From assembly GCA_947460975.1 (NCBI GenBank), contig CANHGO010000003.1, forward strand, positions 1 to 64,000: 64,000 nucleotides of DNA, written 5' to 3'. This DNA comes from Cytophagaceae bacterium (lineage in GTDB: Bacteria > Bacteroidota > Bacteroidia > Cytophagales > Spirosomataceae). Below, piece by piece: positions 18,912 to 60,443 of the stretch (position 1 is its first letter; every line of letters starts with the position of its first letter). The position numbers and the translations under genes were made by a program. Under the pieces are notes generated by a model. The model was not told the origin of the DNA and searched no databases. It saw nothing but the letters and a program-made list of their open reading frames with translations.

Positions 18912-19352
18912 ATGTATTCTATTGTAACAAATGTTCACATAGTGCTTTTTGTACTTGTGTTTATTTTAGGATTAAATCTATTGGTTCGCGCTATTCGCGG
19001 ATTATCCAGCGGAGGCGCTTTTGTTGACGCAGATCGCAAAGCCGGATTGTTTTTCATGATCTCTTTACACACTCAATTGTTGATCGGCCTAGTGCTTTAT
19101 TTTTTCTTAAGCCCTGTAACAGCAGCAGCTTTTGCAGATTTTGGCGCGGCGATGAAAGATCCAGCGACTCGCTTAATTGCCGTTGAGCATATTTCAGTGA
19201 ACGTCATTGCGGTTGTACTAGCAACTATTGTAAATGCCAAAAACAAGAAAAATATAGCAGATGCTGCTAAGCATAAAAATGCGTTGATCTTTAATGGAAT
19301 CGGTCTTTTATTAATTTTAAGCCGCATCCCTTGGTCACGATTGTTTGCCTAA
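18912..19352 (+). CDS. four-helix membrane protein, cytochrome b-like
   Basis: 146 residues with four hydrophobic segments (about 7-27, 45-66, 88-108 and 125-143). Histidines lie in or next to helices at 9, 53, 93 and 121, a pattern compatible with b-type heme ligation, and small Bacteroidota proteins of this shape are often labelled cytochrome b. I cannot confirm heme binding. ATG at 18912 (MYSIVTNVH) follows the promoter-like box; earlier in-frame codons overlap the box. The HAD phosphatase gene starts seven bases after the stop. Confidence 0.72.
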   Translation: MYSIVTNVHIVLFVLVFILGLNLLVRAIRGLSSGGAFVDADRKAGLFFMISLHTQLLIGLVLYFFLSPVTAAAFADFGAAMKDPATRLIAVEHISVNVIAVVLATIVNAKNKKNIADAAKHKNALIFNGIGLLLILSRIPWSRLFA

Positions 19353-19359
19353 GTTTTAT

Positions 19360-19875
19360 ATGAAAAAAAAGTGCATTTTTTTGGATCGCGACGGTGTTCT
19401 AAATGTAGACCGTGTGGATTATGTGTACCGCATGGAAGATTTTATCATTCCAAAAGGTGTCCCTGAGGCATTAATCGCCTTAAAAGAAGCGGGATATTTA
19501 TTGGTTGTTATTACGAATCAAAGCGGTATTGCCAAAGGACTTTATGAACGTAAGCACGTATTTGCGATTCATGAAGCGATTCAAAAAGCTTGCGGTGGCG
19601 TTTTAGATGATTTATATTTTTGCCCTTATCATGAAAATTTTGATAGCCGATCTTTAACGAGAAAACCTGGGTCATTGTTGATTGAAAAGGCGGCGGCTAA
19701 ATACCAGGTCGACTTTAATCTTTCATTTATGGTGGGAGATCATGAACGTGATATCATCGCGGGAACGAGAGCTGGACTTAGAACGATACGTTTGGCCCCC
19801 GAAGGCGAAGAAACGAATGCCACTTTTGTGGTGCGTGATTTACTAGAAGCTTCTCAATTAATTTTAAAAAGTTAG
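19360..19875 (+). CDS. HAD-IIIA phosphatase, GmhB/HisB-N-like
   Basis: 171 residues. The HAD nucleophile motif FLDRDGVLN holds Asp9 and Asp11; motif II is ITNQSGIAKG and the late motif is MVGDHERDI. It is most similar in layout to D-glycero-D-manno-heptose 1,7-bisphosphate 7-phosphatase. However, the GmhB zinc loop is incomplete: CPYH is there, but the following CxC is replaced by FDSRSLTRKP. The heptose genes gmhA and hddA-like at 45.7-49.6 kb would need such an enzyme, so a role there is plausible but unproven. ATG at 19360 gives the standard N-terminus; a TTG 15 bases upstream overlaps the previous gene. Confidence 0.85.
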   Translation: MKKKCIFLDRDGVLNVDRVDYVYRMEDFIIPKGVPEALIALKEAGYLLVVITNQSGIAKGLYERKHVFAIHEAIQKACGGVLDDLYFCPYHENFDSRSLTRKPGSLLIEKAAAKYQVDFNLSFMVGDHERDIIAGTRAGLRTIRLAPEGEETNATFVVRDLLEASQLILKS

Positions 19876-43220: not shown

Positions 43221-44969
43221 ATGTCGTTCATTAAAAAAGTAAGTTATCTATTGTCAGTTTCACAAAAAAGGCAATTAATCCTTATTGGTTTACTCTTGCT
43301 AATCGGAATGGTATTTGAGATGGCTGGGTTAGGAGTACTTATCCCGGCATTAGGTATTATGCTTAATTCCAATATTGCGATTGATTATCCTAAGATCATA
43401 CCATATTTGGAGATGCTTGGCAATCCCGGTCAAATTGAACTTGTCATCTGGGGTATGATGTTTCTGGTGTTCGTATATCTGATTAAAGCAATATTTTTAG
43501 CTTTCCTAAGCTGGAAGCAAAATAAATTTTCTGCTGATATGGCGGCCGATCTTTCCCGTAAATTATTTACGGGATATCTTAGGCAATCCTATGCATTCCA
43601 TCTGGAAAGAAATTCAGCGCAATTGCTTAGGAATGTACAAACGGAAATTAATCTATTCAATGCGGTTGCACAATCGGTTATTGCTTTAACTACAGAGTTT
43701 TCTTTAATAATTGCAGTAGCAGCCATGCTCATTTTTATTGAACCTATAGGAGCTACTGTTGTTATGACATTTTTAGTGATTACCGCCCTGATTTTTCACA
43801 GAATAACTAAAAACTATTTGCTGAATTGGGGACTCAAACGACAAGTAAATGATGGATTGATGAATCAGCATTTACTTCAGGGTTTGGGAGGTGTGAAAGA
43901 TGTTAAGCTCCTGGGTCGGGAGGAAAATTTTGTTTATGAGTACAGCAGCCATAATATTGCAAGGTTTAAAATTTTGGCGAAGCAGAATACTCTAGGACAA
44001 TTACCTCGTTTATATCTGGAACTATTAGCGGTTATTGGTCTCGCCGGGCTTGTTGTTCTAATGGTGATGCAAAATAAGGCCCTGGAATTGTTGCTACCTA
44101 CACTTGGTATTTTTGTAGCCTCTGCATTTCGTATGATCCCGTCTTTTAATCGAATAATGGGAGCAATGCAACAGATTCGGTATGCGCAGCCTGTTGTGAC
44201 GCTGCTTTACGATGAATTTAAAATGATTCGTTCAAATGTATTAAATTCACAAGTTTCCCGAAAAATTAACTTTAAAAATGATATCGTAATAGACAAAGTT
44301 TATTTTAAGTATAATAATGCTAATTCAAACGCTTTGGATGGAATTAATATTACGATTAAGAAGGGGGAATCGGTGGGGTTTATAGGACCAAGTGGTTCGG
44401 GGAAAAGCAGTCTGGTAGATATTATACTGGGTTTACTTTATCCTAACGAAGGCAAAATATTGGTTGACAAAATGAACATAAATGAGAACTTTCGAGGTTG
44501 GCAAGATGAGATTGGGTATGTTCCTCAAACAATTTACCTTACGGATGATAGTTTAAGACGAAATATAGCATTTGGAATAGCAGATCATGAAATTGACGAC
44601 GAGGCAGTTAAGAGGTCTTTAAGGGCAGCTCAGCTCGATGATTTTATTGGGAATCTCAAAGAAGGTCTTGATACATTTGTAGGCGAACGAGGGGTTAGGT
44701 TATCCGGTGGCCAGCGTCAGCGTATCGGAATCGCAAGAGCCCTTTACAATGATCCACCTATTCTGGTACTCGATGAAGCTACAAGCGCTCTTGATTCAAA
44801 TACGGAGGCTGGCGTTATGGATGCAGTTAACGCTTTGCATGGTAATAAAACGCTAATCATTGTTGCTCACCGATTATCTACGGTGGAGGGTTGTGACCGC
44901 TTATACCGGTTAGATCATGGCAAGGTGGTTGATGAGGGAGTTCCAGAAAAGATTCTTAAAAAGAAATAA
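43221..44969 (+). CDS. ABC transporter, PglK/MsbA-like lipid-linked glycan flippase
   Basis: 582-residue half-transporter. Residues 1-320 hold six membrane helices; the nucleotide-binding domain follows with Walker A GPSGSGKSS (about 389-397), signature LSGGQRQR (about 493-500) and Walker B ILVLDEATSALD, then the His switch in VAHRLS. Placed as first gene of a sugar locus and with no Wzx/Wzy seen, a PglK-type role flipping a lipid-linked oligosaccharide is the best reading. Codon and base use change here relative to the genes before 42.8 kb. Confidence 0.9.
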   Translation: MSFIKKVSYLLSVSQKRQLILIGLLLLIGMVFEMAGLGVLIPALGIMLNSNIAIDYPKIIPYLEMLGNPGQIELVIWGMMFLVFVYLIKAIFLAFLSWKQNKFSADMAADLSRKLFTGYLRQSYAFHLERNSAQLLRNVQTEINLFNAVAQSVIALTTEFSLIIAVAAMLIFIEPIGATVVMTFLVITALIFHRITKNYLLNWGLKRQVNDGLMNQHLLQGLGGVKDVKLLGREENFVYEYSSHNIARFKILAKQNTLGQLPRLYLELLAVIGLAGLVVLMVMQNKALELLLPTLGIFVASAFRMIPSFNRIMGAMQQIRYAQPVVTLLYDEFKMIRSNVLNSQVSRKINFKNDIVIDKVYFKYNNANSNALDGINITIKKGESVGFIGPSGSGKSSLVDIILGLLYPNEGKILVDKMNINENFRGWQDEIGYVPQTIYLTDDSLRRNIAFGIADHEIDDEAVKRSLRAAQLDDFIGNLKEGLDTFVGERGVRLSGGQRQRIGIARALYNDPPILVLDEATSALDSNTEAGVMDAVNALHGNKTLIIVAHRLSTVEGCDRLYRLDHGKVVDEGVPEKILKKK

Positions 44970-45000: not shown

Positions 45001-45696
45001 TTGGATCAGCAAACTCTTTTAGTGCTTTCTGGAGGTTTTGGAACCAGATTAAAATCTGTTGTATCTGAAGTTCCTAAGCCTCTTGCTCCTGTAAATGGCC
45101 GCCCATTTTTGTATTATCAAATTAATAATTGGACTAGTCAAGGGTTAAAAAAGTTTATTTTTTTGCTATTTAATCAATCCGAACTGATAATTAACTTTTT
45201 AACGTCAGAGAAAGATGGCATCCTTAAAGGTTGCGATGTAAAATGGGTAGTTGAACTAGAGCCAATGGGTACCGGTGGTGCAGTAGCTTATTCCGTGAAT
45301 CATCTAAATATAAAAGGTGATTTTCTAGTAACCAATGCAGACACCTGGTTAGGTTCAGGAATAAATGAAATCATTGCCAGTGAAGCGCCGGCAATGGCTG
45401 TCATTAAGGTAGAGGATTCGGGACGTTATGGCAGCGTTAAATTATCCAACGATCAAATCGTATCCTTCGAAGAAAAATCCGACAGAACCGATGCCGGTTG
45501 GATAAATGCTGGTTTGTGTAAACTAAATACTCAGAACTTCAAAACAATTAACGAAAAGGTATTTTCCCTTGAACAAAGTATTTTCCCAATGCTGGCAAAA
45601 CAGGGCGATTTGACAGCGGTACAACTTGATACTGAGTTTATTGATATAGGAATTCCTGAAGATTACTTCCGTTTCATAAAGTTCGTTAAATCTTAG
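45001..45696 (+). CDS. sugar-1-phosphate nucleotidyltransferase, HddC-like
   Basis: 232 residues from TTG at 45001. LVLSGGFGTRL is the nucleotide-binding G-x-G-x-R-L loop; VPKPLAPVNGRPFL, EPMGTGGAV and TNADTWLG (metal Asp) are also typical. It resembles D-glycero-D-manno-heptose 1-phosphate guanylyltransferase (HddC). ATGs at 44932 and 44917 would put 60-80 bases of coding over the ABC gene's end and add a non-homologous tail, so TTG is preferred. With the kinase and GmhA genes it suggests GDP-heptose synthesis, though the sugar is not proven. Confidence 0.82.
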   Translation: MDQQTLLVLSGGFGTRLKSVVSEVPKPLAPVNGRPFLYYQINNWTSQGLKKFIFLLFNQSELIINFLTSEKDGILKGCDVKWVVELEPMGTGGAVAYSVNHLNIKGDFLVTNADTWLGSGINEIIASEAPAMAVIKVEDSGRYGSVKLSNDQIVSFEEKSDRTDAGWINAGLCKLNTQNFKTINEKVFSLEQSIFPMLAKQGDLTAVQLDTEFIDIGIPEDYFRFIKFVKS

Positions 45697-45711
45697 ACTA
45701 TTTCTCCCAAT

Positions 45712-47079
45712 ATGAATATTGATTTATTTGTTGTACTTGATTCTGCATCCTTAGAAGAGGCTCTTCGTAAAATTATAGAGAATCGTGGAGGATTCATCCT
45801 AACTCAGGACAGTGACGGTACAATAATCGGATTGGCTACAGATGGGGATATAAGATCTGGTTTATTAAAAGGAATAAGTCTTGAATCACCTATTAATTCA
45901 ATTGTCAATAGAGATTTTTATTTTGGGAGGGAGGATACTCCTCATGAATTGCTTCTTAAACAACTGGACAGTAAAATAAAATTCATTCCTATACTAGACA
46001 ATAACAATAAACTTATTTCGATCCTGACCAAGGATCATCTACCTGAAAAAGCAGAAGTTCGGACATTTTACAGAGCTAAATCTCCCGTTCGAATTAGTTT
46101 TGGCGGTGGTGGATCTGATATTTCAAGCTATTTTAATGATTACGGGGGTGCCGTTATTAATGCTACAATTTCTATATATTCTCATGCCACATTAAGGATA
46201 AGAGATGACGAGAAAATAGTCATTCATTCACTGGATCTAAACGAATCGTGTGAATTCACCAACTTAACAGATTTTCTATTACATATAGGCAGTTTTAATT
46301 TAATAAAATCCGTGATTAATGTGATCAAACCCACTTTTGGCTTTGAGCTTTTTCTGCATTCAGACTTTCCCATGAACTCCGGATTGGGAGGATCTTCAGT
46401 TGTTTCTGCAGCAATACTCGGTTGTTTTAATCAACTAAGAAACGATAAATGGGATAAACATGAGCTCTCTGAAATGGCTTTTCAGGCTGAGCGTATCCAC
46501 CTGGGTATAGCGGGGGGATGGCAGGATCAATATGCCACTGTTTTCGGAGGGCTTAATTTTATGGAATTTAACAATTCTCAAAACATCATTCACCCGATAC
46601 GCATACCAAAACATGTGCTTCTTGAGTTGGAGGAAAGTTTGATACTTTGTTACACCGGGATTACTCATGATTCAGGAAATATTCATGACGACCAGGCAGA
46701 ACAAACAAAAAGCTCGGACGTGAAAGAGAAAATCAAGTCGAATGTTAATCTCACCTATGAAATGAGAAATCATCTTCTGCGGGGCAGATTAACTGAATTT
46801 GGTTATTGTTTAAAGAAGGCCTATGAAATAAAACGGGGATTTAGTTCTAAAATTAGCACGCCATGGCTTGATGGAGTTTATACCCGTGCTATTAGAAGCG
46901 GCGTTATAGGTGGCAAATTACTTGGCGCCGGAGGAGGAGGGTATTTTCTATTCTATGTTCCCCCTTTTTTGCGTCATAAGGTCATGGATTGGATAAAAGA
47001 AGAAGGTCTTGTATACACCCCTTTCATTTTTGAGGAAAATGGTTTACAGGCCTGGACTGTTAGAGAAAAGATTAATTAA
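45712..47079 (+). CDS. CBS-pair domain fused to GHMP sugar kinase (HddA-like)
   Basis: 455 residues. About 1-118 are two CBS motifs with GLATDGDIRSGLL and SPINSIV. About 122-455 are a GHMP kinase: SPVRISFGGGGSDI at the start, the ATP loop PMNSGLGGSSVVSAA (about 220-234), GGWQDQYA, and GAGGGGYFLFY at the end. The kinase half matches D-glycero-D-manno-heptose 7-phosphate kinase (HddA). An N-terminal CBS pair is unusual for that family; the same type of CBS module is on the PtmE-like enzyme at 62568. It may tune the kinase to a nucleotide or CMP-sugar end product. Confidence 0.88.
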   Translation: MNIDLFVVLDSASLEEALRKIIENRGGFILTQDSDGTIIGLATDGDIRSGLLKGISLESPINSIVNRDFYFGREDTPHELLLKQLDSKIKFIPILDNNNKLISILTKDHLPEKAEVRTFYRAKSPVRISFGGGGSDISSYFNDYGGAVINATISIYSHATLRIRDDEKIVIHSLDLNESCEFTNLTDFLLHIGSFNLIKSVINVIKPTFGFELFLHSDFPMNSGLGGSSVVSAAILGCFNQLRNDKWDKHELSEMAFQAERIHLGIAGGWQDQYATVFGGLNFMEFNNSQNIIHPIRIPKHVLLELEESLILCYTGITHDSGNIHDDQAEQTKSSDVKEKIKSNVNLTYEMRNHLLRGRLTEFGYCLKKAYEIKRGFSSKISTPWLDGVYTRAIRSGVIGGKLLGAGGGGYFLFYVPPFLRHKVMDWIKEEGLVYTPFIFEENGLQAWTVREKIN

Positions 47080-47095
47080 ATTAAAGATTATAGTC

Positions 47096-48994
47096 GTGAA
47101 AGTTCAAATTGCAGAACATAACATTGGATCCAGTCGGACATTTATCATTGCGGAGATTGGTAATAATCATAACGGAAGTATTAGCAGAGCCAAAGAACTT
47201 GTAGATCTTGCAGTAGAAATGGGTGCTGATTGCGCCAAATTTCAAATGCGCCATCTTGACAAGGTTTACCGGAAGAGAAGCTTAGTCAAATCTGGGGAAG
47301 ATCTCGGTACCGAGTATATTATCGACCTGCTAAATAGATTTGAGCTTTCTGTTGATGAACACAGAGAATTATCAGAGTATTGTAAGGGAAAGGGGATTCT
47401 ATATATGTGTACTCCCTGGGATACCAAGAGTTTGGAAGTGCTTGAATCATTTGAAGTACCAGCATATAAGGTCGCATCTGCTGATCTTACTAATCTGCCA
47501 CTTCTTGACGCTCTCGCTCAAACCGGAAGGCCTCTAATTCTTTCAACAGGTATGAGTACCAGTGAGGAAATTAAACATACGGCAGAATTCCTGAATAGAA
47601 GAAAAGCGCCTTTTGTATTTCTGCACTGCAATAGTACTTATCCCGCACCCTATCATGATATAAACTTGAATTGGATGGAAAGGCTAAGTGAGATTCATCC
47701 TCTTGTGGGCTATTCAGGACATGAAAGAGGGACCTCAGTTTCGCTAGCAGCAGTTGCACTCGGTGCATGTGTAATTGAACGTCATTTTACTTTAGATAGG
47801 AATATGGAAGGGCCGGATCACGCCGCGAGCCTTGAGTTTACAGATTTTAAAAGACTAATTGACGGTATAAGGGAAATTGAAGAATCTCTCGGTAGTAATG
47901 AAAAGGAAAGGTTGTTTAGCCAGGGTGAGTTGATAAACCGGGAAAATCTTAGCAAAAGCTTGGTAGCTTCCACAAATCTAACAGCAGGTTCAATCCTGAA
48001 ACCTTCGGATATAAAGGTTCTTAGTCCGGGTCAGGGACTTTCTGCTCAAAAATATGAGGAACTGCTGGGTAAGAAGCTTAGCAGGGATATGAATGAGGAA
48101 GATTTCTTTTTCCCTTCTGACCTAAGTGACAATAAGATTGAGCCTAGAAATTATAAATTTCTGCATCCTTGGGGCGTACCGGTTAGGTATCATGACTTTA
48201 AGGAATACGCAGATAATAAGATCAAGCCGGACCTTTTTGAGTTCCATTTGTCGTATTCTGATATGAATCTGGATCCTTCGGAATTTTTAACTGAAACTTC
48301 GGATCTCGATTTTGTGATTCATGCTCCTGAGCTTTTTGCCGGAAGTCATTTGATGGATCTGGCCTCTAGAGATGAAGCATACAGAAGAAATTCAATTATC
48401 GAGACCCAACGGGTAATAGATATTACCAATTCGCTTAAAAAATATTTTCCGAAAACAAAAAGGCCTATGATCGTGGCTAATATTGGTGGCTTTACCATGG
48501 ATAGGCCGCTGGAAAAAAGCCAACTGACCAGTTACTATGAGCTTTTTGCAAAAAGTCTCAGCGAGCTTGATATGGATGGCGTGGAACTCATTCCCCAAAC
48601 AATGGCTCCTTTCCCGTGGCATTTTGGAGGACAGCGCTATCAGAATTTATTTGTTCAGGTAGATGAAATTGTAAAATGGTGTTCTGAATTAAATCTAAGA
48701 ATGTGTTTTGATGTTTCTCATTCTCACCTTACCTGTGCTCATTTTAATTTAGATTACTATGATTTTGTTGAGAAAATAGCTCCCTACACCGCACATATCC
48801 ACTATGGTGATGCGAAAGGTGTTAACGGGGAAGGCCTCCAGATTGGCGAAGGAGAAATAGATTTTGAAAGGCTAGGTAAAATTTTGAATATTGGATGTCC
48901 AAATGCTTCATTTATCCCTGAGATTTGGCAGGGCCACAAGAATGGTGGTGAAGGATTTTGGATAGCTTTGGACAAATTAGAGGGCACATTATAA
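47096..48994 (+). CDS. NeuB-family synthase-SAF-xylose isomerase-like TIM barrel fusion
   Basis: 632 residues from GTG at 47096, 16 bases after the kinase stop. About 12-300 are a NeuB-type PEP-condensing synthase (FIIAEIGNNHNGSI, CAKFQMRHLD, ILSTGMSTSEE, VGYSGHERGT, ERHFTLDRNMEGPDH). A SAF/antifreeze-like domain follows (about 318-365, LKPSDIKVLSPGQGLSA). About 375-632 form a sugar-phosphate isomerase/epimerase barrel with candidate metal ligands in FVIHAPE, MCFDVSHSH, HIHYGDAKG and PEIWQGH. Condensing an aldose with PEP and isomerising a sugar may be linked steps. A second, stand-alone NeuB lies at 60444. The substrate is unknown. Confidence 0.85.
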   Translation: MKVQIAEHNIGSSRTFIIAEIGNNHNGSISRAKELVDLAVEMGADCAKFQMRHLDKVYRKRSLVKSGEDLGTEYIIDLLNRFELSVDEHRELSEYCKGKGILYMCTPWDTKSLEVLESFEVPAYKVASADLTNLPLLDALAQTGRPLILSTGMSTSEEIKHTAEFLNRRKAPFVFLHCNSTYPAPYHDINLNWMERLSEIHPLVGYSGHERGTSVSLAAVALGACVIERHFTLDRNMEGPDHAASLEFTDFKRLIDGIREIEESLGSNEKERLFSQGELINRENLSKSLVASTNLTAGSILKPSDIKVLSPGQGLSAQKYEELLGKKLSRDMNEEDFFFPSDLSDNKIEPRNYKFLHPWGVPVRYHDFKEYADNKIKPDLFEFHLSYSDMNLDPSEFLTETSDLDFVIHAPELFAGSHLMDLASRDEAYRRNSIIETQRVIDITNSLKKYFPKTKRPMIVANIGGFTMDRPLEKSQLTSYYELFAKSLSELDMDGVELIPQTMAPFPWHFGGQRYQNLFVQVDEIVKWCSELNLRMCFDVSHSHLTCAHFNLDYYDFVEKIAPYTAHIHYGDAKGVNGEGLQIGEGEIDFERLGKILNIGCPNASFIPEIWQGHKNGGEGFWIALDKLEGTL

Positions 48995-49002
48995 ATATAA
49001 TA

Positions 49003-49572
49003 ATGAAAATTAAAGAACAAATTGAGGCAGCAATAGATGTAAAGAAATTAATGGCTGAGGATTTAGAGCTTCAACAACAAATTCAAAAGCTTATCAATTG
49101 GTGTTACGATTCTTTAAAAGATGGAGGAAAAATAATTTTTGCTGGTAATGGTGGCTCCTTTGCAGACGCGCAGCATTTAACTGCCGAATTTATTTCCAGA
49201 TTGCAGTTTGACAGGGCACCACTGGCTTCGATAGCGCTAGGCACAAACAGCTCTTCAATGAGTGCGATTGGGAACGACTATGGGTACGACCAGGTATTTG
49301 CCCGGGAAATTATTGCAATGGGGTCTGAAAAAGATATTTTTATTCCCATTACGACGAGCGGAAATAGTCCCAACATACTGGAAGCGGTTATTCAGGCAAA
49401 AAAACTCAATATAAAAACGATGGGTTTAACCGGTAGCATTGGAGGGAATCTTATTTCAATATGCGAGTGTATTTGTGTCCCATCAATGAGAACTGAAAGA
49501 ATTCAGGAAGCACACATTCTTATCGGCCATATTGTATGCGGCTTAGTTGAAAATCTTTATTTTAAAAAATGA
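49003..49572 (+). CDS. gmhA: phosphoheptose isomerase (GmhA-like SIS protein)
   Basis: Converts sedoheptulose 7-phosphate to D-glycero-D-manno-heptose 7-phosphate. 189 residues with the SIS-domain GNGGSFADAQH (48-58), TSGNSPNI, and zinc ligands near His58, Glu62 and the QEAHILIGH stretch. ATG at 49003 gives the family N-terminus; an in-frame TTG further upstream overlaps the previous gene. It overlaps the next gene by four bases (ATGATGA). It supplies the heptose for the HddA-like and HddC-like enzymes in this module. Confidence 0.9.
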   Translation: MKIKEQIEAAIDVKKLMAEDLELQQQIQKLINWCYDSLKDGGKIIFAGNGGSFADAQHLTAEFISRLQFDRAPLASIALGTNSSSMSAIGNDYGYDQVFAREIIAMGSEKDIFIPITTSGNSPNILEAVIQAKKLNIKTMGLTGSIGGNLISICECICVPSMRTERIQEAHILIGHIVCGLVENLYFKK

Positions 49573-50309
49573 TGACAATACCAGGATTTATAACTGTTAG
49601 ATCGAGTTCTTCCCGCTTGCCTGGAAAATGTTTCCTGCCATTCGGAGACAACTGTAATGTTCTTGAACATATCGTGCGTCGCGCTAAGCATTATGATATT
49701 GAGCCTATTATTTGTACGAGTGTTGATTCTTCGGATGATCAAATTGAGCAATTAGCAAAGAAAGAGGGAGTTCGTTACTTCAGAGGTTCCCTTTCTAATA
49801 AGCTTCAACGATGGGCGGATTGTGCCACGTATTTCAATATTGATGTATTTCACACGGTAGACGCAGACGATCCATTTTTTGATGGAGCTGAAATGCATAG
49901 ATCGTATGATTACCTTAAGTTCGGTAACTTTGATGTTGTTTCGCCCACCGAGATATCTTCGGCTGGTGCCGCGACAGTTGGTTACACCCTGAAAAAAGAT
50001 ATCGTAATAAAAGCATGCGCGGGGCTGGATGAAAATGCCGATACTGAAATGATGTGGTATTATCTGGATAAGATCACATCTATAAAAAAAGTAACGTTAC
50101 CGGCTATTGAAAATAGTAGTCTTAAACTTCGGCTTACACTTGACTATCCTGAAGATTATTGGTTAATGGAATCAATCAGAAGGATTACAGGTAATTTAGC
50201 TCCCCGAAATAAAGTGGATGAGTTATTTGCACGCAATCCCGATTTGTATTTAGTAAACTGGTTCCGTAACCAGGAATGGAAATCTGCTCAAGAAGCAAAA
50301 AAAGTATAA
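49569..50309 (+). CDS. cytidylyltransferase-family protein (SpsF/KdsB/NeuA-like)
   Basis: 246 residues. The opening ITVRSSSSRLPGKCFLPFG is the R-x-S-S-x-R-x-P-x-K loop of CMP-sugar synthetases, and HTVDADDPFFDG and LRLTLDYPEDY are later family marks. It lies inside the first sugar module and could activate the product of the NeuB-SAF-TIM fusion. The family also includes SpsF-type proteins of unknown specificity. ATG at 49569 or 49572 may be used. Confidence 0.82.
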   Translation: MMTIPGFITVRSSSSRLPGKCFLPFGDNCNVLEHIVRRAKHYDIEPIICTSVDSSDDQIEQLAKKEGVRYFRGSLSNKLQRWADCATYFNIDVFHTVDADDPFFDGAEMHRSYDYLKFGNFDVVSPTEISSAGAATVGYTLKKDIVIKACAGLDENADTEMMWYYLDKITSIKKVTLPAIENSSLKLRLTLDYPEDYWLMESIRRITGNLAPRNKVDELFARNPDLYLVNWFRNQEWKSAQEAKKV

Positions 50310-50337: not shown

Positions 50338-51522
50338 ATGAACAAACCTGGATGGAGATTTGAAGGAAACGAGCGCAAATATTTGGAAGAGGTATTGGTA
50401 ACCGGATTTCGATCCGGTGCTGATGGGGCATTTACGTCCCGGCTAGAGAAATTTTTTGCTCAAATTTATGGTGTAAAATATGCTATCGCATTTAATTCTG
50501 GCACCACAACATTGCATGCAATGTTGCTTGCTATGGGGTGTGGACCAGGCGATGAAGTTCTAACCCCAGCCTTAACCCCGCTGATGTGTGGATTAGCCCC
50601 ATATTATACGGGAGCAACTCCGGTTTTTGTTGATTCTGATCCTTTAACCTTTTTAATGGACTCTCAGGATATTGAAAGAAAGATAACACCTAAGACTAAG
50701 GTTATTTTTGTTGCCCATATGTACGGAGCAGTTTGTAATATGAAGGAAATTGAAAAAATTGCAAGGAAGCATGATCTCTATATTTTAGAGGATTGTGCTC
50801 AGTGTCATGGTGGGCGGGATGATTTGGGAAGATTGGCTGGAACCATTGGGGATGCGGGAAGCTGGAGCTTTGAAAATTCAAAGCAACTAACTTGTGGCGA
50901 TGGCGGAATTGTGACTTGCAATGATGAAAGCCTGGCAACATTTATAAGAAAAACAGGTGGATTAGGCTTTAAAACACTTACTGCCGAATCTGGTAAAGTC
51001 AGAACTGATCGTGACTTACTTCAAAACCCTAATTGGGAAAGATTTGAACAAATTGGTTTTAACTTTCGAATGAATCAGTTAGCTGCTGCAGTCGCACTAG
51101 CTCAGATGGAGAGGAACGATTTCTTTATACAGCTTAGAAGGGATATGGGAGTAGCTTATAAAGCTGCACTTTCAGCATCCTCCCTCTTAAGCCCTCAATT
51201 TGAACCGGACGGATTTTACTACACATATTATACATTTTCGGCCAAATTCAATGGAGATGAGCATGGTGTAAAGTGGGAAGATTTTAGAAAAAAATATATG
51301 GATTTTGGGGGAGATGGAATTTATGCTGCTTCTAAACTCCAGCATCAGGAACCGGCATTCCGCGATAATAAAATTGGATACGGAGAAACACCTGTTGCGG
51401 TTGATTTGCAAAAAAAATTAATGAATTTCACAACCAATCAAGCGAATTTTGAAGAAAGAGAAATTCAAATTAATGCCTTAAAAGCAACTTTAAAGTATTT
51501 TGGGGATACAATAGCATCATAA
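50338..51522 (+). CDS. DegT/DnrJ/EryC1/StrS-family aminotransferase
   Basis: 394 residues of fold-type I PLP enzyme. AFNSGTTTLHAML, LTPALTP, and the SFENSKQLTCGDGG motif with PLP lysine Lys182 are visible; ILEDCAQCHGG holds the Asp that contacts the PLP ring. It transfers an amino group to a keto-sugar, or may use a non-nucleotide substrate given its neighbours. In position with the SDR and cytidylyltransferase it fits a three-gene sub-cluster. Clearly distinct from the LegC-type enzyme at 57545. Confidence 0.9.
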   Translation: MNKPGWRFEGNERKYLEEVLVTGFRSGADGAFTSRLEKFFAQIYGVKYAIAFNSGTTTLHAMLLAMGCGPGDEVLTPALTPLMCGLAPYYTGATPVFVDSDPLTFLMDSQDIERKITPKTKVIFVAHMYGAVCNMKEIEKIARKHDLYILEDCAQCHGGRDDLGRLAGTIGDAGSWSFENSKQLTCGDGGIVTCNDESLATFIRKTGGLGFKTLTAESGKVRTDRDLLQNPNWERFEQIGFNFRMNQLAAAVALAQMERNDFFIQLRRDMGVAYKAALSASSLLSPQFEPDGFYYTYYTFSAKFNGDEHGVKWEDFRKKYMDFGGDGIYAASKLQHQEPAFRDNKIGYGETPVAVDLQKKLMNFTTNQANFEEREIQINALKATLKYFGDTIAS

Positions 51523-51527: not shown

Positions 51528-52346
51528 ATGAACGATTTATTTTCCCTAAAAGATAAAGTCATTGTGATAACTGGTGCCGCTGGCCTTTTAGGACGACAGC
51601 ATGCTGACATCGTTGCAAAGGCAGGAGGAATTCCAATTGTTCTAGATATAAATAGAAAGGATGTAGAACAACTAGCTACAGACCTTCAGGAAAAATATGG
51701 GGTGCTATCTTCTGGGTATGCTGTTGATATCACAGATGAAGCTGAGATTGAAGCAAATTGTAATTTTTTGCTCAGCCAATACGGCCATATAGATGGTTTA
51801 GTTAACAATGCTGCGAATAACCCGAAAATGGATACAAGTAGTTCTAAAAATTTTTCTCGGGTAGAAAATTTTTCAAGATCAGTATGGGAGGCAGATATAT
51901 CAGTAGGTTTAACAGGCGCATTTTTATGCTGCAAGTATTATGGATTTGCAATTTCCCGTCAAGGGGGTAGCATAGTCAATATCTCTTCTGACCTAGGTTT
52001 AATATCTCCTGATCAACGGCTGTACAGAAAGCAAGGAATACCAGATGATCAGCAGCCCGTAAAACCTATTACTTATTCGGTTGTAAAAAGTGGATTAATA
52101 GGACTTACCCGGTATATAGCCACTTATTGGCCTAAGGAAAATGTAAGATGTAACGTAATTTGCCCAGGAGGAGTTGAAACTGAGCAAGATCCTGTATTCG
52201 TAAAGGATTTATGTGAAAGAATCCCTTTGGGAAGAATGGCGAATCGAAGTGAATATCAAGGAACAATTCTTTATTTACTTAGCGAAGCATCTAGTTATAT
52301 GACGGGCGCAGTTATTAGCGTGGACGGTGGCAGAACCGTTTGGTAA
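51528..52346 (+). CDS. short-chain dehydrogenase/reductase (PtmA-like)
   Basis: 272-residue classical SDR: nucleotide motif TGAAGLLG, NNAAN, and catalytic Ser/Tyr183/Lys187 (YSVVKSG), ending PGGVET and SVDGGRTVW. It resembles the PtmA-type reductases of flagellin-glycan and nonulosonate loci. It starts five bases after the aminotransferase gene. The substrate is probably a keto-sugar or sugar acid; not established. Confidence 0.87.
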   Translation: MNDLFSLKDKVIVITGAAGLLGRQHADIVAKAGGIPIVLDINRKDVEQLATDLQEKYGVLSSGYAVDITDEAEIEANCNFLLSQYGHIDGLVNNAANNPKMDTSSSKNFSRVENFSRSVWEADISVGLTGAFLCCKYYGFAISRQGGSIVNISSDLGLISPDQRLYRKQGIPDDQQPVKPITYSVVKSGLIGLTRYIATYWPKENVRCNVICPGGVETEQDPVFVKDLCERIPLGRMANRSEYQGTILYLLSEASSYMTGAVISVDGGRTVW

Positions 52347-52371
52347 TGGAAGTCACAAACAATTAAATCTC

Positions 52372-52920
52372 ATGAAGTTCATAGAATTAACAGGACAACG
52401 GATTCGTCTTATCAATCCTACAGAAGATTATTTGGACGATATTCATGAATATTCCATAATGCCACAGTTTTATGATTATTTGGAATATCCACCTTTCAAA
52501 AACATTGATGAAACAAAATCTTTTCTGTTTAAATTATTAAAACGTTCAGATGATATCACCGGGCACTACTGGTTTATATATAATAGATCTAAAAATAAAG
52601 TAATAGGAACCATAGGCTTATTAGATATTGACCTAAGAAAAGGATCCGCCGAATTAACTTATGGCCTATCCCCCATTTTTTGGGGAAAGGGGTTTTTTTC
52701 GGAAGCTCTAAAACTGGTTACTAATTGGTTTTTTGAACAAGATGATACTCACCGTCTTTTTGTAAAGACAGCTGGTGGAAATATCAACTCAGTTAATGCT
52801 GTTTTAAGAATAGGTTTTAAGAGGGAGGGCTTATTGCGTGATTATTATTTTGATGAAAAAACTCAAAAAAGAGGTGATGCCATTCTCCTATCTATGCTAA
52901 AGTCAGACATAAATTATTGA
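52372..52920 (+). CDS. GNAT-family N-acetyltransferase (RimJ/RimL-type)
   Basis: 182 residues with acetyl-CoA-binding stretches ELTYGLSPIFWGKGFFSEAL and NSVNAVLRIGFKREG. It is related to sugar N-acetyltransferases of the PseH/SpsD kind in glycan loci. ATG at 52372 is preferred, since a 45-base upstream start would overlap the SDR gene. An amino sugar made by the aminotransferase at 50338 would be its natural substrate (inferred). Confidence 0.85.
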   Translation: MKFIELTGQRIRLINPTEDYLDDIHEYSIMPQFYDYLEYPPFKNIDETKSFLFKLLKRSDDITGHYWFIYNRSKNKVIGTIGLLDIDLRKGSAELTYGLSPIFWGKGFFSEALKLVTNWFFEQDDTHRLFVKTAGGNINSVNAVLRIGFKREGLLRDYYFDEKTQKRGDAILLSMLKSDINY

Positions 52921-52928
52921 TTTCTTTC

Positions 52929-54644
52929 ATGCAAAAACACACACACGGGATATACTTAACGGAGGTAACTCTTCCAAAATTTTTAATCTTTATAGCCATT
53001 GGACGGGAAATTTGTGTTTTGGGGGCCTACTCTTATATCCAGAATCATGGTGGCTACTTGGAAAAGTTTGTAACTAAGTTAAAAGCAAAGAATATTGTAA
53101 AAACGATAAGCGATTTTGATAATCTCATTCCCTATAAGGACGCTGGTGATTTTCAGCGATTGACAAATGTTTTCTCAGAAAGTGAGGCCTGGATGGAATC
53201 TCAATTCAATCTCAATTTCTTAAAAGGAGATTACGCATTAGCTTGTAAACATATTATATGTAATAGAACTTTTTCGCTTTATCAACGTAATTATGATCTT
53301 CACTACTTAGAGAATACAATTGTAGTACCCGTATTAAATTCATACGATAATTCTTTTTTTCAATTTAGATTTGGAAAGTCTTTGAAAAGCAACTTGTTTG
53401 AAGTTGTAAGCAATTATCTACTGAATATTTCTTTCTTTATTTTATCATTAATTCAATGTTTTGTTTGGATATTTTCTAGAATTAGATTTGTAAATAATCA
53501 CCAAAAAATAACATTTGCAGCCGACTACGTTGGTGGACCAAGAGACATGAGATTTTGGGATTATCTTAATCCAGACAAAACAAAAACTTTAGTCGTTGTA
53601 CGTGACAAATATACCATGCAAGCTTTTGGTCATCTGCTGGGTGACTATAAAGTTGTTTTTGATAACGAAGGATCTTTTGCACTAGGATCAGGGATTAATG
53701 CATGGATAAAATCTTTCAAGGACTCATTTTTACTTTTTGTCAGCTCCTCACAACTGCCCCCAGACTATTATCGACAAATTTGCTTTCTTCCTTTTAAGAG
53801 AATAAAATACAGGGCACTGTTTAATAAGTACAAGTGTAGTTTTTTTTGGGGGCGCGATGATTACAATTATCAGCATATCATGCGAAGTCAGGAAATAAGG
53901 AGAATTGGTGGTGTTTCAATGGGATGTAATCATGGTATTCAATCAATCGCAACTATTGCATATCAACTTCGTTATTTGGATTTTGATTATTATTACATGC
54001 ATGGTTTGGATCAATATACTGATGTTTATTCTAAGTATTGGCCGGAACATATGATTGCCAAAGGAGTAGGCTCGATGTTTTCTAATCCTCAGCAACAGGC
54101 AATTATTAAAGAAACTGAGGGTACAGACGTTGCAATTATCATAGCCCCAAGTTTCCACCAGGATTTAATTTATGATGCGATTGTACAGCTTGCAAAGACA
54201 TTTTCTGATTTAAACTTCTGGATAATTACAAAACCCAAACATCGTCTTGAAGGTGATTTTGGTAAAAAATACCAGAGTTTAATCCTCTCAGGGCTTAAAA
54301 ATGTTCAGGAGAGTATAGAAGACGTTTACGACTTATTGCCTCGATGTAAATTCGTATTTAGTGAGAGTTCTACTTTACTAGCAGAGTCGGTCTATTTTGA
54401 CCGAATTGCACTCTGTTTTGATCCGGATCCTTCGTTTAAGTTTCTGTATTACCGTAAATTTCCGGAAATGGTTTTCAAGGATGTTGATGGATTAATCGCC
54501 AGGATACAAGAAACAAGATATTTGCCCGTCCATTATAATGACCCTAATCTTGGTTCAATGACTTTTAAGGGAGATAAACATCCCTGGTCTATAATCAAGG
54601 AGGATATAATCATTCGTGAACCCAATTATAATTATGAAAAATAA
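52929..54644 (+). CDS. unknown glycan-locus protein, GT-B-like C-terminal half
   Basis: 571 residues from ATG at 52929; an in-frame TTG at 52917 overlaps the GNAT stop. One hydrophobic segment lies near residues 160-185 (LLNISFFILSLIQCFVWIF). The N-terminal part has no recognised family. The C-terminal part has alternating beta/alpha stretches such as DVAIIIAPSFHQDL, FWIITKPKHR and CKFVFSESSTLLAESVYFD, the last resembling the nucleotide-sugar site of GT-B or CDP-glycerol-type polysaccharide transferases. Treated as a putative glycosyltransferase only. Confidence 0.62.
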   Translation: MQKHTHGIYLTEVTLPKFLIFIAIGREICVLGAYSYIQNHGGYLEKFVTKLKAKNIVKTISDFDNLIPYKDAGDFQRLTNVFSESEAWMESQFNLNFLKGDYALACKHIICNRTFSLYQRNYDLHYLENTIVVPVLNSYDNSFFQFRFGKSLKSNLFEVVSNYLLNISFFILSLIQCFVWIFSRIRFVNNHQKITFAADYVGGPRDMRFWDYLNPDKTKTLVVVRDKYTMQAFGHLLGDYKVVFDNEGSFALGSGINAWIKSFKDSFLLFVSSSQLPPDYYRQICFLPFKRIKYRALFNKYKCSFFWGRDDYNYQHIMRSQEIRRIGGVSMGCNHGIQSIATIAYQLRYLDFDYYYMHGLDQYTDVYSKYWPEHMIAKGVGSMFSNPQQQAIIKETEGTDVAIIIAPSFHQDLIYDAIVQLAKTFSDLNFWIITKPKHRLEGDFGKKYQSLILSGLKNVQESIEDVYDLLPRCKFVFSESSTLLAESVYFDRIALCFDPDPSFKFLYYRKFPEMVFKDVDGLIARIQETRYLPVHYNDPNLGSMTFKGDKHPWSIIKEDIIIREPNYNYEK

Positions 54645-55578
54645 AATTAAAGTCGCGTTCATTGGTGCGGGTTATATGGCTAAAGAGCATATCAAGGCGT
54701 TCGCGGATATTGAGGGGGTTGAGCTTGCTGGAATCCTTTCACGCACGCGTATTAAAGCAGAATTGCTTGCAGCGGAGTTTGGAATAACTGAAGTATGTGA
54801 TTCCATAACCGAACTATATCAAAAGACACAGGCACAACTGGTGGTGATATCTGTTTCGGTAATAGCTGTAAAAAATTCATGTTTTGAAGCGTTTGAATAC
54901 CCCTGGGTATGTTTAATTGAAAAACCTGCCGGCTATGATTTAGAGGAAGCAGAAACCATTGCTGCAAAAGCCAATATGCAAGGCGCAATTGCATATGTTG
55001 CCCTCAATCGCCGCCATTACAGCAGTACAACTGCAGTTATGAATGAATTTTGTTCTATTCCGGGGCCTCGACTGGTGAATGTATTCGACCAGGAAGACCA
55101 GGTTGCAGCCCGAAAAGCTAACCAACCTGAGGTTGTTGTGCAAAACTGGATGTACGCAAATGCAATTCATATGGTAGACTACCTTCGTATTTTTTGCCGT
55201 GGAACAGTTGAGTCTGTGGATCCTATCATGCACTGGGATGCGGAGAACCCCGGTTTTGTAGCCGCAAAGATCCTATTTTCTTCAGGAGACATTGGCCTGT
55301 ACCAGGCTATATGGAATGGTCCCGGTCCATGGGCTGTAACCATTACTACACAGGAAAAACGTTGCGAACTACGTCCTTTGGAACAGGCTACATTGCAATT
55401 GAATGGATCAAGAAGATCAGATTTGATGCCTTGTAGCGAACGGGACACCAAATTTAAACCTGGTCTAAGGGCTCAGGCTGAAGAAGCTGTAAAAGCAATT
55501 AGTGGGCAACCGCATAATTTGCCTTCTTTATCAGAAGCCCTTCTATCTATGCGGTTGGTAAAGGAGATATATGCATAG
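54634..55578 (+). CDS. Gfo/Idh/MocA-family oxidoreductase 1 of the glycan locus
   Basis: 314 residues. The Rossmann motif VAFIGAGYMAKEH and the catalytic EKPAGYD motif are both present, so it can be an active NAD(P)-dependent sugar dehydrogenase or reductase. ATG at 54634 gives the usual start and overlaps the previous gene by 11 bases. The following gene is of the same fold and overlaps by eight bases. Confidence 0.86.
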   Translation: MKNKIKVAFIGAGYMAKEHIKAFADIEGVELAGILSRTRIKAELLAAEFGITEVCDSITELYQKTQAQLVVISVSVIAVKNSCFEAFEYPWVCLIEKPAGYDLEEAETIAAKANMQGAIAYVALNRRHYSSTTAVMNEFCSIPGPRLVNVFDQEDQVAARKANQPEVVVQNWMYANAIHMVDYLRIFCRGTVESVDPIMHWDAENPGFVAAKILFSSGDIGLYQAIWNGPGPWAVTITTQEKRCELRPLEQATLQLNGSRRSDLMPCSERDTKFKPGLRAQAEEAVKAISGQPHNLPSLSEALLSMRLVKEIYA

Positions 55579-56527
55579 TAATATATTAATTGCAGGGGCG
55601 GGTCAATTGGGGTCGCGTTATCTTCAAGGGCTTGCAAAAGTCCCCGATCCCCTTAACGTGTACGTTCAGGATATATCAGCAGAATCACTGGAAAGAGCTA
55701 ATGCAAGGTGGAAAGAGGTAAAGAATCAAGATAGCCATCACCAGGTCTTTTTTATACAAAACTTTGATGAACTTCCGGGATCGGTTGATATAGCGATTAT
55801 TTCTACCTCTGCAGGTGTACGGCCAGAAGTTGTGGAAATGGTAGCCAAGGCAACAAATGTTGAGTATTGGATACTAGAAAAAGTATTGGCCCAGAGCGAG
55901 GATGATATTGCCAGGATTGGATCTGTAGTTATCGATTCTAAAGGTGCATGGATCAATACAACACGTAGGATCATGAAATGGCACCAGGATATAAAATCCC
56001 AAATAAGTGCCGCAGGCCCTATCATAATGGATATTTCAGGCGGTAGCTGGGGACTTGCTTCCAATGCAGTTCATTTCCTGGATATGCTTTGCTGGTGGAC
56101 AGGTGAGCGACTAGAGCACTTGGATACAAAAGGCTTGGCATCTGACTGGGTTGAAAGTAAAAGACATGGATATTATGAAATTTTTGGTACAATGATTGCA
56201 AATGTTTCCGGTGGATCAAAAGCAACTATATCTGCCACTGAAGAAATCTCCCCACATATCATAAGATTGACTGATCACAATTTCGAATGGACCATCGATG
56301 AAACTAGGCGATTTGCCCGCCGTTCAGATGGGCTGGTGATAACCGGCCAGATAGAAGTGCAAAGTACACTTACCACAGGTCTGATAAAAGATATTATGGA
56401 AACAGGTACATGCGGATTACCCACTTTCGATGAATCTGCTACCTTACACCGGGTATTTTTGAAAGCTTTACAGGAGCATTGGAATAAACAGCCCGGCAAA
56501 CCGAAAGACAGTTTGCCTATAACATAA
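55571..56527 (+). CDS. Gfo/Idh/MocA-like oxidoreductase 2 of the glycan locus
   Basis: 318 residues. ILIAGAGQLGSRY is the nucleotide motif; ILEKVLAQSED holds Glu-Lys but not the usual Pro. A GGSWGLASNAVHFLDM stretch has the His typical of this fold. It is only distantly similar to the preceding gene, so the pair may act on different substrates or as a heteromer. Position between the first module and legB leaves its pathway open. Confidence 0.8.
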   Translation: MHSNILIAGAGQLGSRYLQGLAKVPDPLNVYVQDISAESLERANARWKEVKNQDSHHQVFFIQNFDELPGSVDIAIISTSAGVRPEVVEMVAKATNVEYWILEKVLAQSEDDIARIGSVVIDSKGAWINTTRRIMKWHQDIKSQISAAGPIIMDISGGSWGLASNAVHFLDMLCWWTGERLEHLDTKGLASDWVESKRHGYYEIFGTMIANVSGGSKATISATEEISPHIIRLTDHNFEWTIDETRRFARRSDGLVITGQIEVQSTLTTGLIKDIMETGTCGLPTFDESATLHRVFLKALQEHWNKQPGKPKDSLPIT

Positions 56528-56562: not shown

Positions 56563-57561
56563 ATGGATCTAAAAAATAAAAAGGTACTGGTTACCGGCGC
56601 TGATGGTTTTATCGGAAGCCATCTGGTAGAACAATTAATTGAAGAAGAAGCCAATGTAAAAGCGTTTGTGTATTACAATTCATTCAATAGCTGGGGCTGG
56701 CTGGATACACTATCCAAAGAAAAGCTAAATAAAATTGAGGTATTTGCTGGCGATATAAGAGACCCTAACGGCGTTCGTTCAGCAATGCAAGGCTGCGATA
56801 TTGTTTTTCATCTAGCAGCTCTTATTGCGATTCCGTTTAGTTACCATTCTCCGGATTCATATATTGATACAAATGTAAAGGGAACGTTAAATATCATTCA
56901 GGCTGCGAAGGACCTAAATGTCGAAAGAGTTCTTGTAACATCTACCTCAGAAGTGTATGGGACCGCCAAATATATTCCCATTGATGAGGAGCATCCACGG
57001 CAGTCGCAATCTCCATATTCAGCGTCAAAAATTGGCGCCGATTGTATCGCTGATTCTTTCTTCAGGAGTTTTGATCTGCCGTTAACAATAGTTCGTCCTT
57101 TTAATACCTACGGTCCTCGTCAGTCAGCGAGGGCTGTTATTCCAACGATTATTACACAACTTCTGACCGGTGTCCAGGAAATAAGGCTAGGTGATATTAC
57201 ACCAACACGTGACTTGCTGTTTGTCAAAGACACAGTTTTGGGTTTTGTTGAAATCGCAAAGTCCGACAGCCTTGTCGGGCAGGATTGTAATATTGCCACA
57301 GAATCGGAAATATCAGTTGGTGACCTTGCAATTGAATTGATAAGTCAGATTAATCCAAATGCAAAAATTATTTTGGATGAGCAAAGGGTCCGCCCTGATA
57401 AATCAGAAGTCTTCAGGCTTTATGGTTCGAATAAAAAGATTAGGGCGAATACAAATTGGGAACCGATGTATTCTCTTTCCGAAGGTATTGCCGAGACAGT
57501 TGACTGGTTTAAAATTCCAGAAAATCTTGTAAAGTATAAATCAGATGTCTATAATATCTAA
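56563..57561 (+). CDS. legB: LegB-type nucleotide-sugar 4,6-dehydratase
   Basis: Makes the 4-keto-6-deoxy sugar from a GlcNAc nucleotide, first committed step to legionaminic acid. 332 residues: TGADGFIGSH, FHLAALIAIPFSYHSPDSYI (very characteristic of LegB), STSEVYG, catalytic Tyr152/Lys156 (YSASK) and PTRDLLFVKDT. C. jejuni LegB uses GDP-GlcNAc; the nucleotide here is inferred from the PtmE-like gene at 62568. It overlaps the next gene by 17 bases. Confidence 0.93.
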   Translation: MDLKNKKVLVTGADGFIGSHLVEQLIEEEANVKAFVYYNSFNSWGWLDTLSKEKLNKIEVFAGDIRDPNGVRSAMQGCDIVFHLAALIAIPFSYHSPDSYIDTNVKGTLNIIQAAKDLNVERVLVTSTSEVYGTAKYIPIDEEHPRQSQSPYSASKIGADCIADSFFRSFDLPLTIVRPFNTYGPRQSARAVIPTIITQLLTGVQEIRLGDITPTRDLLFVKDTVLGFVEIAKSDSLVGQDCNIATESEISVGDLAIELISQINPNAKIILDEQRVRPDKSEVFRLYGSNKKIRANTNWEPMYSLSEGIAETVDWFKIPENLVKYKSDVYNI

Positions 57562-58693: not shown

Positions 58694-59312
58694 CAGAGAA
58701 ACAGTAGTGGTGGGTTACTCAGGCCATGCATGGGTTTTAGCTGAGGCTGCAATATGTTTAGGAATGAGATTAATCTATTATATAGATTTCAAACAGGCTG
58801 AGAAAAATCCTTATAATCTTACTTATTTGGCTTCAGATATCGATGATAATTTTCAGGAATGGAATAGTGGGTATCAATATGTACTCGGGATTGGAGATAA
58901 TCAGGCACGTTTTCGTATAGCAAGTATGTTGGAAGAAAGAAGCCAGTTAATGCCAGCGATTATACATCCCGATGCATCAGTTGCGCAAAATGCTGAGATC
59001 GGAGCAGGTATTTTCATTGCAAGAAATGCTGCTGTGAATCCCTTGGCTAGTATAGGCGACTATACTATTCTTAACACATCCAGTGTTGTCGAACATGAAT
59101 GTAAAATTGGGTGTGCATCACATATAGGCCCCGGAACAGTACTGGGAGGGAATGTCTATGTTGGTGATAGAACGTTTATAGGGGCGAATTCGGTTGTAAA
59201 GCAAGGAGTAACAATTGGAGATGATGTTATTATCGGAGCCGGATCAGTGATAATAAGAGATGTATCCTCAGGTACCAGGATCGTTGGGAACCCTGGCAGG
59301 GAAATTAAATAA
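58686..59312 (+). CDS. NeuD-family sugar acyltransferase (LegH candidate)
   Basis: 208 residues. An N-terminal Rossmann-like part (VVVGYSGHAWVLAEAA) is followed by a left-handed beta-helix of hexapeptide repeats (about 90-205, with IGAGIFIARNA, IGPGTVLGGNVYVG and IGANSVVKQGVTIG) and the catalytic His in VVEHECKIG. This is the NeuD/PglD/LegH type. After LegC it would acetylate the new 4-amino group; O-acetylation of the final sugar is the alternative. Confidence 0.88.
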   Translation: MYNRETVVVGYSGHAWVLAEAAICLGMRLIYYIDFKQAEKNPYNLTYLASDIDDNFQEWNSGYQYVLGIGDNQARFRIASMLEERSQLMPAIIHPDASVAQNAEIGAGIFIARNAAVNPLASIGDYTILNTSSVVEHECKIGCASHIGPGTVLGGNVYVGDRTFIGANSVVKQGVTIGDDVIIGAGSVIIRDVSSGTRIVGNPGREIK

Positions 59313-60393: not shown

Positions 60394-60443
60394 TTCGAAC
60401 TAAAAGTCACAGATGTTCTTAATTAATCTCTAAAAAAAATTCA

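Follow-up and report, generated by a model that had tools for sequence, protein, structure and literature searches.

To our knowledge, the ulosonic acids of bacterial glycans have seven to nine carbons, examples being Kdo, the sialic, legionaminic and pseudaminic acids and Kdn. The synthases NeuB, PseI and LegI are built of a NeuB barrel and a SAF domain. The pathway to guanosine diphosphate (GDP)-D-glycero-alpha-D-manno-heptose, which serves for example the capsules of Campylobacter and Burkholderia, employs enzymes of the GmhA, HddA, GmhB and HddC types. The subject of this report is a gene block in a 64,000-nucleotide stretch of DNA from a Cytophagaceae bacterium (assembly GCA_947460975.1, contig CANHGO010000003.1, positions 1 to 64,000; hereafter the window), whose source genome is 1.5 Mb long and 62.6% complete. 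Five genes, encoding an HddC-like protein, a CBS-HddA kinase, a fusion of NeuB, SAF and AP_endonuc_2 domains, GmhA and a cytidylyltransferase, lie head to tail, with almost no gaps, on the + strand at 45001-50309; the last two overlap by 4 bases. All five had been named in this order in a first-pass annotation of the letters, and all were recovered by Pfam.

Relative to NeuB, PseI and LegI, the fusion keeps the NeuB barrel, the SAF domain and eight contact residues but adds a C-terminal ketose-epimerase-like barrel, has Ser in place of the SAF Arg, and bears four further contact changes. All four enzyme types of the GDP-heptose pathway were found in or beside the operon across its relatives, whereas the operon's kinase has an N-terminal CBS module and pairs with an enzyme that condenses phosphoenolpyruvate (PEP). 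The fusion's C-terminal domain shares the fold of D-tagatose 3-epimerase, UlaE and MJ1311-type barrels (TM-score about 0.6), whereas it is joined to NeuB-SAF and is 11-19% identical to the first 20 structural matches. The GDP-linked legionaminic acid pathway of Campylobacter, as described in PMC4481668, resembles the pathway proposed below in GDP-type activation followed by PEP condensation and transfer to cytidine monophosphate (CMP). A CBS-type motif on an early enzyme is a further likeness (the PtmE-like protein in the window, HddA in the fusion operon), but the LegB, LegC, LegH and LegG genes belong to a neighbouring cluster and not to the fusion operon.

By family assignment the parts of the block are members of known superfamilies, and its kin are the PEP-condensing CMP-ulosonate pathways. 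We tentatively read it as a pathway, conserved and spread by horizontal transfer, that leads to a CMP-activated 3-deoxy-2-ulosonic acid with a heptose-derived skeleton, a reading we consider quite possible though short of probable. No description of the fusion, its pairing with CBS-HddA, the pathway or a ten-carbon (C10) ulosonic acid was found in the open-access literature, which is weak evidence of novelty.

The 82 fusions examined comprise that of the window, one from a plasmid, and the best 80 of 457 barrel relatives in a genome collection. All 80 proved to be fusions, as the other relatives among the 457 need not be. These 80 are the best-scoring loci and not an even sample, 34 of them being from Bradyrhizobium or its family; phyla were assigned by record title, and several loci are single contigs of metagenome-assembled genomes (MAGs). 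As a second sample, 395 genomes drawn evenly from the window's phylum were searched for the fusion at a limit of E 1e-60. Eight gene clusters occurred in more than 30 loci and are called common here; rarer clusters were annotated only in part.

The fused synthase and its altered SAF domain

The whole fusion was modelled with a mean predicted local distance difference test (pLDDT) score of 89.4 and a predicted TM-score (pTM) of 0.76. Its NeuB-SAF part superposed on NeuB of Neisseria meningitidis (1xuu) with a TM-score of 0.88 by target length, and the best Foldseek matches were 1xuu and 8h2c. The fusion scored 339.3 bits against the N-acetylneuraminate synthase model TIGR03569 and 249.3 bits against the pseudaminic acid synthase model TIGR03586, below the equivalog cut-offs of 399.65 and 340.25. 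By its barrel, SAF domain and retained active-site residues, the NeuB part is a genuine member of the NeuB superfamily.

Thirteen ligand-contact residues of N. meningitidis NeuB are listed in PMC6795526. Eight of those listed there are kept in the window's fusion (E25, Q55, T110, K129, Y186, S213, H215 and E234, in N. meningitidis numbering), and five differ (N74, F112, N184, F288 and R314; alignment counted by hand). The position of Arg314, in the SAF domain, is occupied by Ser in 82 of 82 fusions, while the unfused NeuBs of the same loci have the Arg in all nine readable cases, a tenth being cut short; the fusion carries SGHERG where synthases of the NeuB, PseI and LegI types have SDHT/S. 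According to the same paper, Arg314 helps to place the N-acetyl group of N-acetylmannosamine and its Ala mutant is inactive; PDB entries 4ipi and 4ipj are the Ala and Lys mutants. The Arg-to-Ser change would therefore lead one to expect an aldose lacking the N-acetyl group as the substrate. On these residues an ordinary sialic-type substrate is unlikely and a heptose would fit, as would other plain sugars. The Ser also provides a one-residue signature by which the fusion is directly recognisable.

The C-terminal barrel scored 73.3 bits against AP_endonuc_2, above the Pfam cut-off of 31.1, and its model (pLDDT 85.9, with loop 229-242 below 50) has the predicted fold of a ketose 3-epimerase. Foldseek matched it to ketose 3-epimerases and UlaE and, lower down, to L-rhamnose isomerase; MJ1311 was its only PDB sequence relative at E up to 0.01. 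Residues E153, D195, H198, H223, H225 and E265 are candidate metal ligands, invariant in 23 of 23 sequences, when read against the metal-binding Glu/Asp/His/Glu positions of known ketose 3-epimerase-like enzymes. The isomerase-like character ascribed to the barrel in the first-pass annotation agrees with the predicted isomerase/epimerase fold, in which these Glu, Asp and His residues are invariant.

These results bear on the possibility that the block makes an ordinary sialic, legionaminic or pseudaminic acid, the barrel being an accessory and the heptose genes chance neighbours. The NeuB part is indeed of the true NeuB family, and a separate, ordinary legionaminic set adjoins at 56563-63998, with genes of the LegB, LegC, LegH, methyltransferase, LegI, LegG, PtmE-like and LegF-like types. 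The LegB, LegC, LegH, LegI and LegG types exceed their models' cut-offs; the PtmE-like gene, whose product bears a CBS-type motif, and the LegF-like gene, which is cut by the window's end, were named by resemblance. This set, however, has a NeuB of its own above cut-off (LegI, 473.6 bits to TIGR03569). None of LegB, LegC, LegH and LegG belongs to the common genes of the 82 loci; within the flanking DNA examined, only the window and L024 gave LegG-type matches. Together with the absence of the SAF Arg from every fusion and the near-complete co-occurrence of fusion and CBS-kinase described below, this makes an ordinary pathway highly improbable.

As a separate observation, the phylum sample held short NeuBs of about 290-330 residues (e.g. 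L097, L111 and L114) whose match ends near residue 290 and which perhaps lack a SAF domain. Over that limited length their identity to the NeuB part of the fusion is 45-46%, whereas most longer NeuBs reach 36-42%.

The kinase-fusion pair and the heptose-type genes

A CBS-HddA-type kinase adjoins the fusion in 79 of the 82 loci. Of the remaining three, L045 and L056 start with the fusion itself at a contig end, and only the Ensifer plasmid is truly without the kinase. The CBS motif is present in 75 of 78 clustered kinases, the exceptions being two cut by contig ends (L036 and L040) and one short frame (L038). In the phylum sample, full-length fusions were found in 3 of 395 genomes (the window's own, G105 and G220) and full-length CBS-kinases in the same three, adjacent each time, while 31 other genomes had HddA matches starting at residue 89 or later, with the CBS part uncovered, and no full-length fusion. 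The CBS-kinase looks like a subfamily of its own, since identity does not exceed 38% for HddA matches that leave the CBS part uncovered.

The run HddC-HddA-fusion-GmhA is contiguous in 24 of the 39 non-Bradyrhizobium loci with enough flank, the window included, and the arrangement is therefore not due to chance. Divergence of the three heptose-type proteins was correlated with that of the fusion (HddA, r = 0.86 in 49 loci; HddC, 0.81 in 36; GmhA, 0.72 in 35). Weaker correlations were obtained for the ABC transporter (0.65, 16 loci) and two short-chain dehydrogenase/reductases (SDRs; 0.59 and 0.57), and the weakest for a second, free-standing barrel (0.48) and the cytidylyltransferase (0.42). 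All eight, the weaker ones too, were unmatched in 300 label shuffles, which leave shared ancestry uncorrected. These data support the view that the fusion and the heptose-type genes are conserved and inherited together as a unit. The first-pass annotation had linked the enzymes by gene order alone and had named, as an outcome that would speak against it, a fusion found mostly without heptose genes; the relatives' neighbourhoods, with the kinase so regularly beside the fusion and both in the same three phylum genomes, give the link a broader footing and run counter to that outcome.

The heptose-type enzymes scored well below the models of the established enzymes: the HddC-like protein 134.7 bits to NF049965 (equivalog cut-off 300), the kinase 246.2 bits to NF049969 over residues 121-450 (cut-off 600), and the GmhA-like protein 162.8 bits to TIGR00441 and 175.1 bits to NF010546 (cut-offs 209.45 and 276). 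With scores so far below the cut-offs they look like a separate subfamily, which corrects the first-pass annotation. These scores are what a change of substrate would predict, in which the heptose-like enzymes would have turned to a pentose or hexose type of sugar and the product would be a C8 or C9 ulosonic acid, like Kdn or a Kdo isomer, made from an aldose with no N-acetyl group at C2; the loss of the N-acetyl contact with the SAF Arg also agrees with it. Against it, the nearest PDB relatives of the HddA-like kinase are the heptose kinases 4n3o and 4usm, and that of the GmhA-like protein is the phosphoheptose isomerase 2xbl (E 2.2e-51). The Glu and His motifs of GmhA, catalytic in the E. 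coli enzyme, are both kept in 33 of 35 family members, the exceptions being a 127-residue fragment (L022) and a second paralogue in L018. Since GmhB also joins the operon, as described next, we hold a changed substrate to be unlikely.

No phosphatase had been named at first pass; the heptose-type genes then reported are confirmed, and GmhB belongs with them in many relatives. Of 46 other non-Bradyrhizobium loci, 17 have a GmhB-type gene no more than 6 kb from the fusion, and in 12 of these 17 it directly precedes HddC or HddA. Representatives matched GmhB and related HAD models, one of three above a GmhB cut-off; the L031 copy passes TIGR00213 with 195.2 bits. HddC and GmhB are a single protein of about 400 residues in Bradyrhizobium, situated inside the locus in 14 of 34 (e.g. 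L048:18750-19973, - strand), and their matches share one frame in all four Bradyrhizobium genomes searched for both. Searches of whole genomes with the GmhB family matched 19 of 20 fusion-bearing genomes, only 6 of the 20 above cut-off; such matches say little, and gene position is the better evidence for GmhB membership. With GmhB, the heptose genes are by family a complete nucleotide-heptose set.

A side observation concerns L038, the locus with the short HddA frame, in whose genome the HddC- and GmhB-like matches are broken by several stops; the block may be decaying there, or the assembly may be poor.

A candidate route from heptose to an ulosonic acid

From the genes present and their joint inheritance, the protein families, the predicted fold and the altered residues we infer the following reactions, their order and the product. 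GmhA would convert sedoheptulose 7-phosphate to heptose 7-phosphate, to which the CBS-HddA kinase would add a 1-phosphate in a feedback-regulated step with the CBS module as sensor. GmhB, encoded beside the operon in many relatives and elsewhere in the window's genome, would take off the 7-phosphate, and HddC would activate the heptose. The heptose or a derivative would then be released and handed to the fusion, whose epimerase-like barrel would set or isomerise the sugar and whose NeuB-SAF part would condense the open-chain aldose with PEP; an intact heptose would give a 3-deoxy-dec-2-ulosonic acid (C10). The cytidylyltransferase would place this acid on CMP, while an SDR, the second barrel or a Gfo/Idh protein, and a variable aminotransferase would tailor the sugar. 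The product would finally be exported and built into a surface glycan. That heptose and PEP yield a CMP-activated ten-carbon 3-deoxy-2-ulosonic acid, in a widespread and horizontally transferred pathway, is in our judgement possible, with considerable doubt attached.

A regulatory role for the CBS module is suggested by two other proteins. Locus L004 of Ensifer canadensis (14552-16906) encodes CBS-NeuB-SAF-AP_endonuc_2 as one protein, with a cytidylyltransferase adjoining, and the window's PtmE-like nucleotidyltransferase has a CBS-type motif; the module may therefore mark regulated steps.

The genes downstream may point to a common sugar for tailoring and CMP transfer. Near the SDR termed SDR2 and the second barrel, which is present in 59 of 65 loci with room downstream, lies a variable slot that holds a class III aminotransferase, a class IV aminotransferase, a DegT protein or none. 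Across 39 loci, cytidylyltransferase subtype 3 occurred with class III in 14, with none in 9 and with class IV in 4; subtype 25 occurred with class IV in 8, and subtype 47, that of the window, with DegT in 4, the window included. None of 20000 shuffles gave as strong an association, shared ancestry being uncorrected. That the subtype tracks the slot suggests that the cytidylyltransferase sees the aminotransferase product, in which case tailoring and CMP transfer would act on one and the same sugar.

Several observations weigh against a single pathway. Its weak point is the release of heptose from the nucleotide: no hydrolase for this step was seen, and no nucleoside diphosphate (NDP)-sugar hydrolase of the NeuC/LegG type is among the eight commonest clusters, the rarer ones being annotated in part. 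No HddA kinase was found on the 1.9-Mb Ensifer plasmid that bears a fusion. Among non-Bradyrhizobium loci with room, the fusion lacks an adjoining HddC in 7 of 40 and an adjoining GmhA in 10 of 38; the genomes of seven loci without GmhA were searched, and six of them carry a GmhA match elsewhere. Of eight Bradyrhizobium genomes, just one has a convincing GmhA, and three more have weak SIS matches. The window itself is without a second AP_endonuc_2 protein, and its GmhB candidate lies 27 kb away and scores 134.5 bits (NF006506) and 110.3 bits (TIGR00213), below the cut-offs of 178 and 149.6.

Some of these points would be accounted for if the block supplied two donors to one glycan. GmhA, HddA, GmhB and HddC would then make GDP-heptose, while the fusion and the cytidylyltransferase would make an unrelated C8 or C9 CMP-ulosonate from another aldose, the genes being inherited jointly since one conserved glycan motif requires both sugars. 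The heptose genes are a complete GDP-heptose set by family, the lack of a heptose-releasing enzyme among the eight commonest clusters is explained better than by one pathway, and the divergent Ensifer fusion has no such kinase on the same replicon. On the other hand, none of those eight clusters is an obvious source of another aldose, and the kinase-fusion pair is kept even in Bradyrhizobium, where HddC is relocated and fused to GmhB. Nor is there a glycosyltransferase among the eight, although local ones are possible among the partly annotated rarer clusters, and for this reason one sugar pathway is favoured over two donors. We consider two donors, the main alternative, somewhat less likely than one pathway, and continue with a single heptose-to-ulosonate pathway as the preferred reading.

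If that reading is true, the C10 acid would stand one carbon above the sialic acids and unite the heptose and sialic-acid branches of sugar metabolism. It would represent an overlooked class of acidic surface sugars, with an operon in ten phyla by record title that is common in Bradyrhizobium, and the labels 'N-acetylneuraminate synthase' or plain 'heptose' would mislead for such genes.

Bradyrhizose is a C10 sugar of photosynthetic Bradyrhizobium. It was considered as a product given the share of loci from Bradyrhizobium or its family; no link was found and it was dropped. PMC4743980 ties it to an 11-gene cluster with a deoxythymidine diphosphate (dTDP)-glucose 4,6-dehydratase and gives its synthesis genes as unknown, and none of the six strains of that paper is named among the best 80 of 457 loci.

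Distribution and the surrounding genes

The fused barrel was recovered from the window's own genome but not from any of 58 related genomes, of which 36 belong to the same genus and 22 to the same order. Fusions were seen in ten phyla by record title, including Bacteroidota, Pseudomonadota, Chlorobiota, Balneolota, Bdellovibrionota and Cyanobacteriota. The 49 others aligned, Ensifer (52%) excluded, are 61-75% identical to the fusion of the window, and the nearest relative is from a Flavobacteriaceae MAG (75%). A tree of 52 fusions needs 13 changes of phylum label where the minimum is 9, and its well-supported branches force at least 4 changes for Bacteroidota alone. This distribution fits horizontal spread, with the reservation that MAG bins can hold foreign contigs. 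The only plasmid record with a fusion is that of Ensifer canadensis, and relatives were found neither in phage sequences nor among viral contigs. The only E. coli match, among 5426 genomes, was a 115-base stretch within an annotated neuB of one genome, and at that sensitivity no E. coli O-antigen of known structure could therefore serve as a guide.

The block extends past 50309, through the genes for DegT, SDR, GNAT, a 575-residue protein and two Gfo/Idh-type proteins, to 56527 (Table 1). Homologues of these downstream genes lie in the same order in the marine Flavobacteriaceae locus L005, where two more genes, for a second AP_endonuc_2 protein and an additional Gfo/Idh protein, are interposed. 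The window's cytidylyltransferase cluster also occurs in L005, L011, L034 and L045. The start codon of the fusion was picked by us, guided in part by the length of relatives.

Table 1. Genes of the block and associated features in the window.
Feature	Position	Strand	Remarks
GmhB-like phosphatase candidate	19345..19875	+	134.5 bits to NF006506, cut-off 178; 27 kb from fusion
ABC transporter, putatively flippase-like	43221..44969	+	Immediately upstream of block; its gene cluster in 14 loci including the window
HddC-like sugar-1-phosphate nucleotidyltransferase	45001..45696	+	TTG start, open frame from 44917; NTP_transferase 75.9 bits (Pfam)
CBS-domain HddA-like sugar kinase (GHMP)	45712..47079	+	CBS 40.4 and GHMP_kinases_N 66.8 bits (Pfam)
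NeuB-SAF-AP_endonuc_2 fusion, 632 residues	47096..48994	+	GTG start; NeuB 286.5, SAF 33.4, AP_endonuc_2 73.3 bits (Pfam)
GmhA-like sedoheptulose-7-phosphate isomerase (SIS)	49003..49572	+	SIS_2 84.5 bits (Pfam)
SpsF-type cytidylyltransferase	49569..50309	+	CTP_transf_3 34.9 bits, cut-off 22.6 (Pfam)
DegT-family aminotransferase	50338..51522	+	One of three alternative aminotransferase types for the slot
SDR oxidoreductase, common gene SDR2	51528..52346	+	In 62/65 loci with at least 7.5 kb downstream
GNAT acetyltransferase	52327..52920	+	Common to L005, L034, L045
575-residue protein	52917..54644	+	No Pfam/NCBIfam match; homologue in L005, same place
Gfo/Idh/MocA oxidoreductase	54616..55578	+	Homologue in L005
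Second Gfo/Idh-like protein	55571..56527	+	Named by us from sequence; no NCBIfam match; homologues in L005, L047

Two further proteins of these loci may be transferases. The 575-residue protein of the window is one possible case. In L008 the SDR genes are followed, at 15724-17505, by a transferase of the LIC12162 family (522 bits, cut-off 225). This protein, the sole member scanned of a gene cluster found in 10 loci, could be a glycosyltransferase that handles the product.

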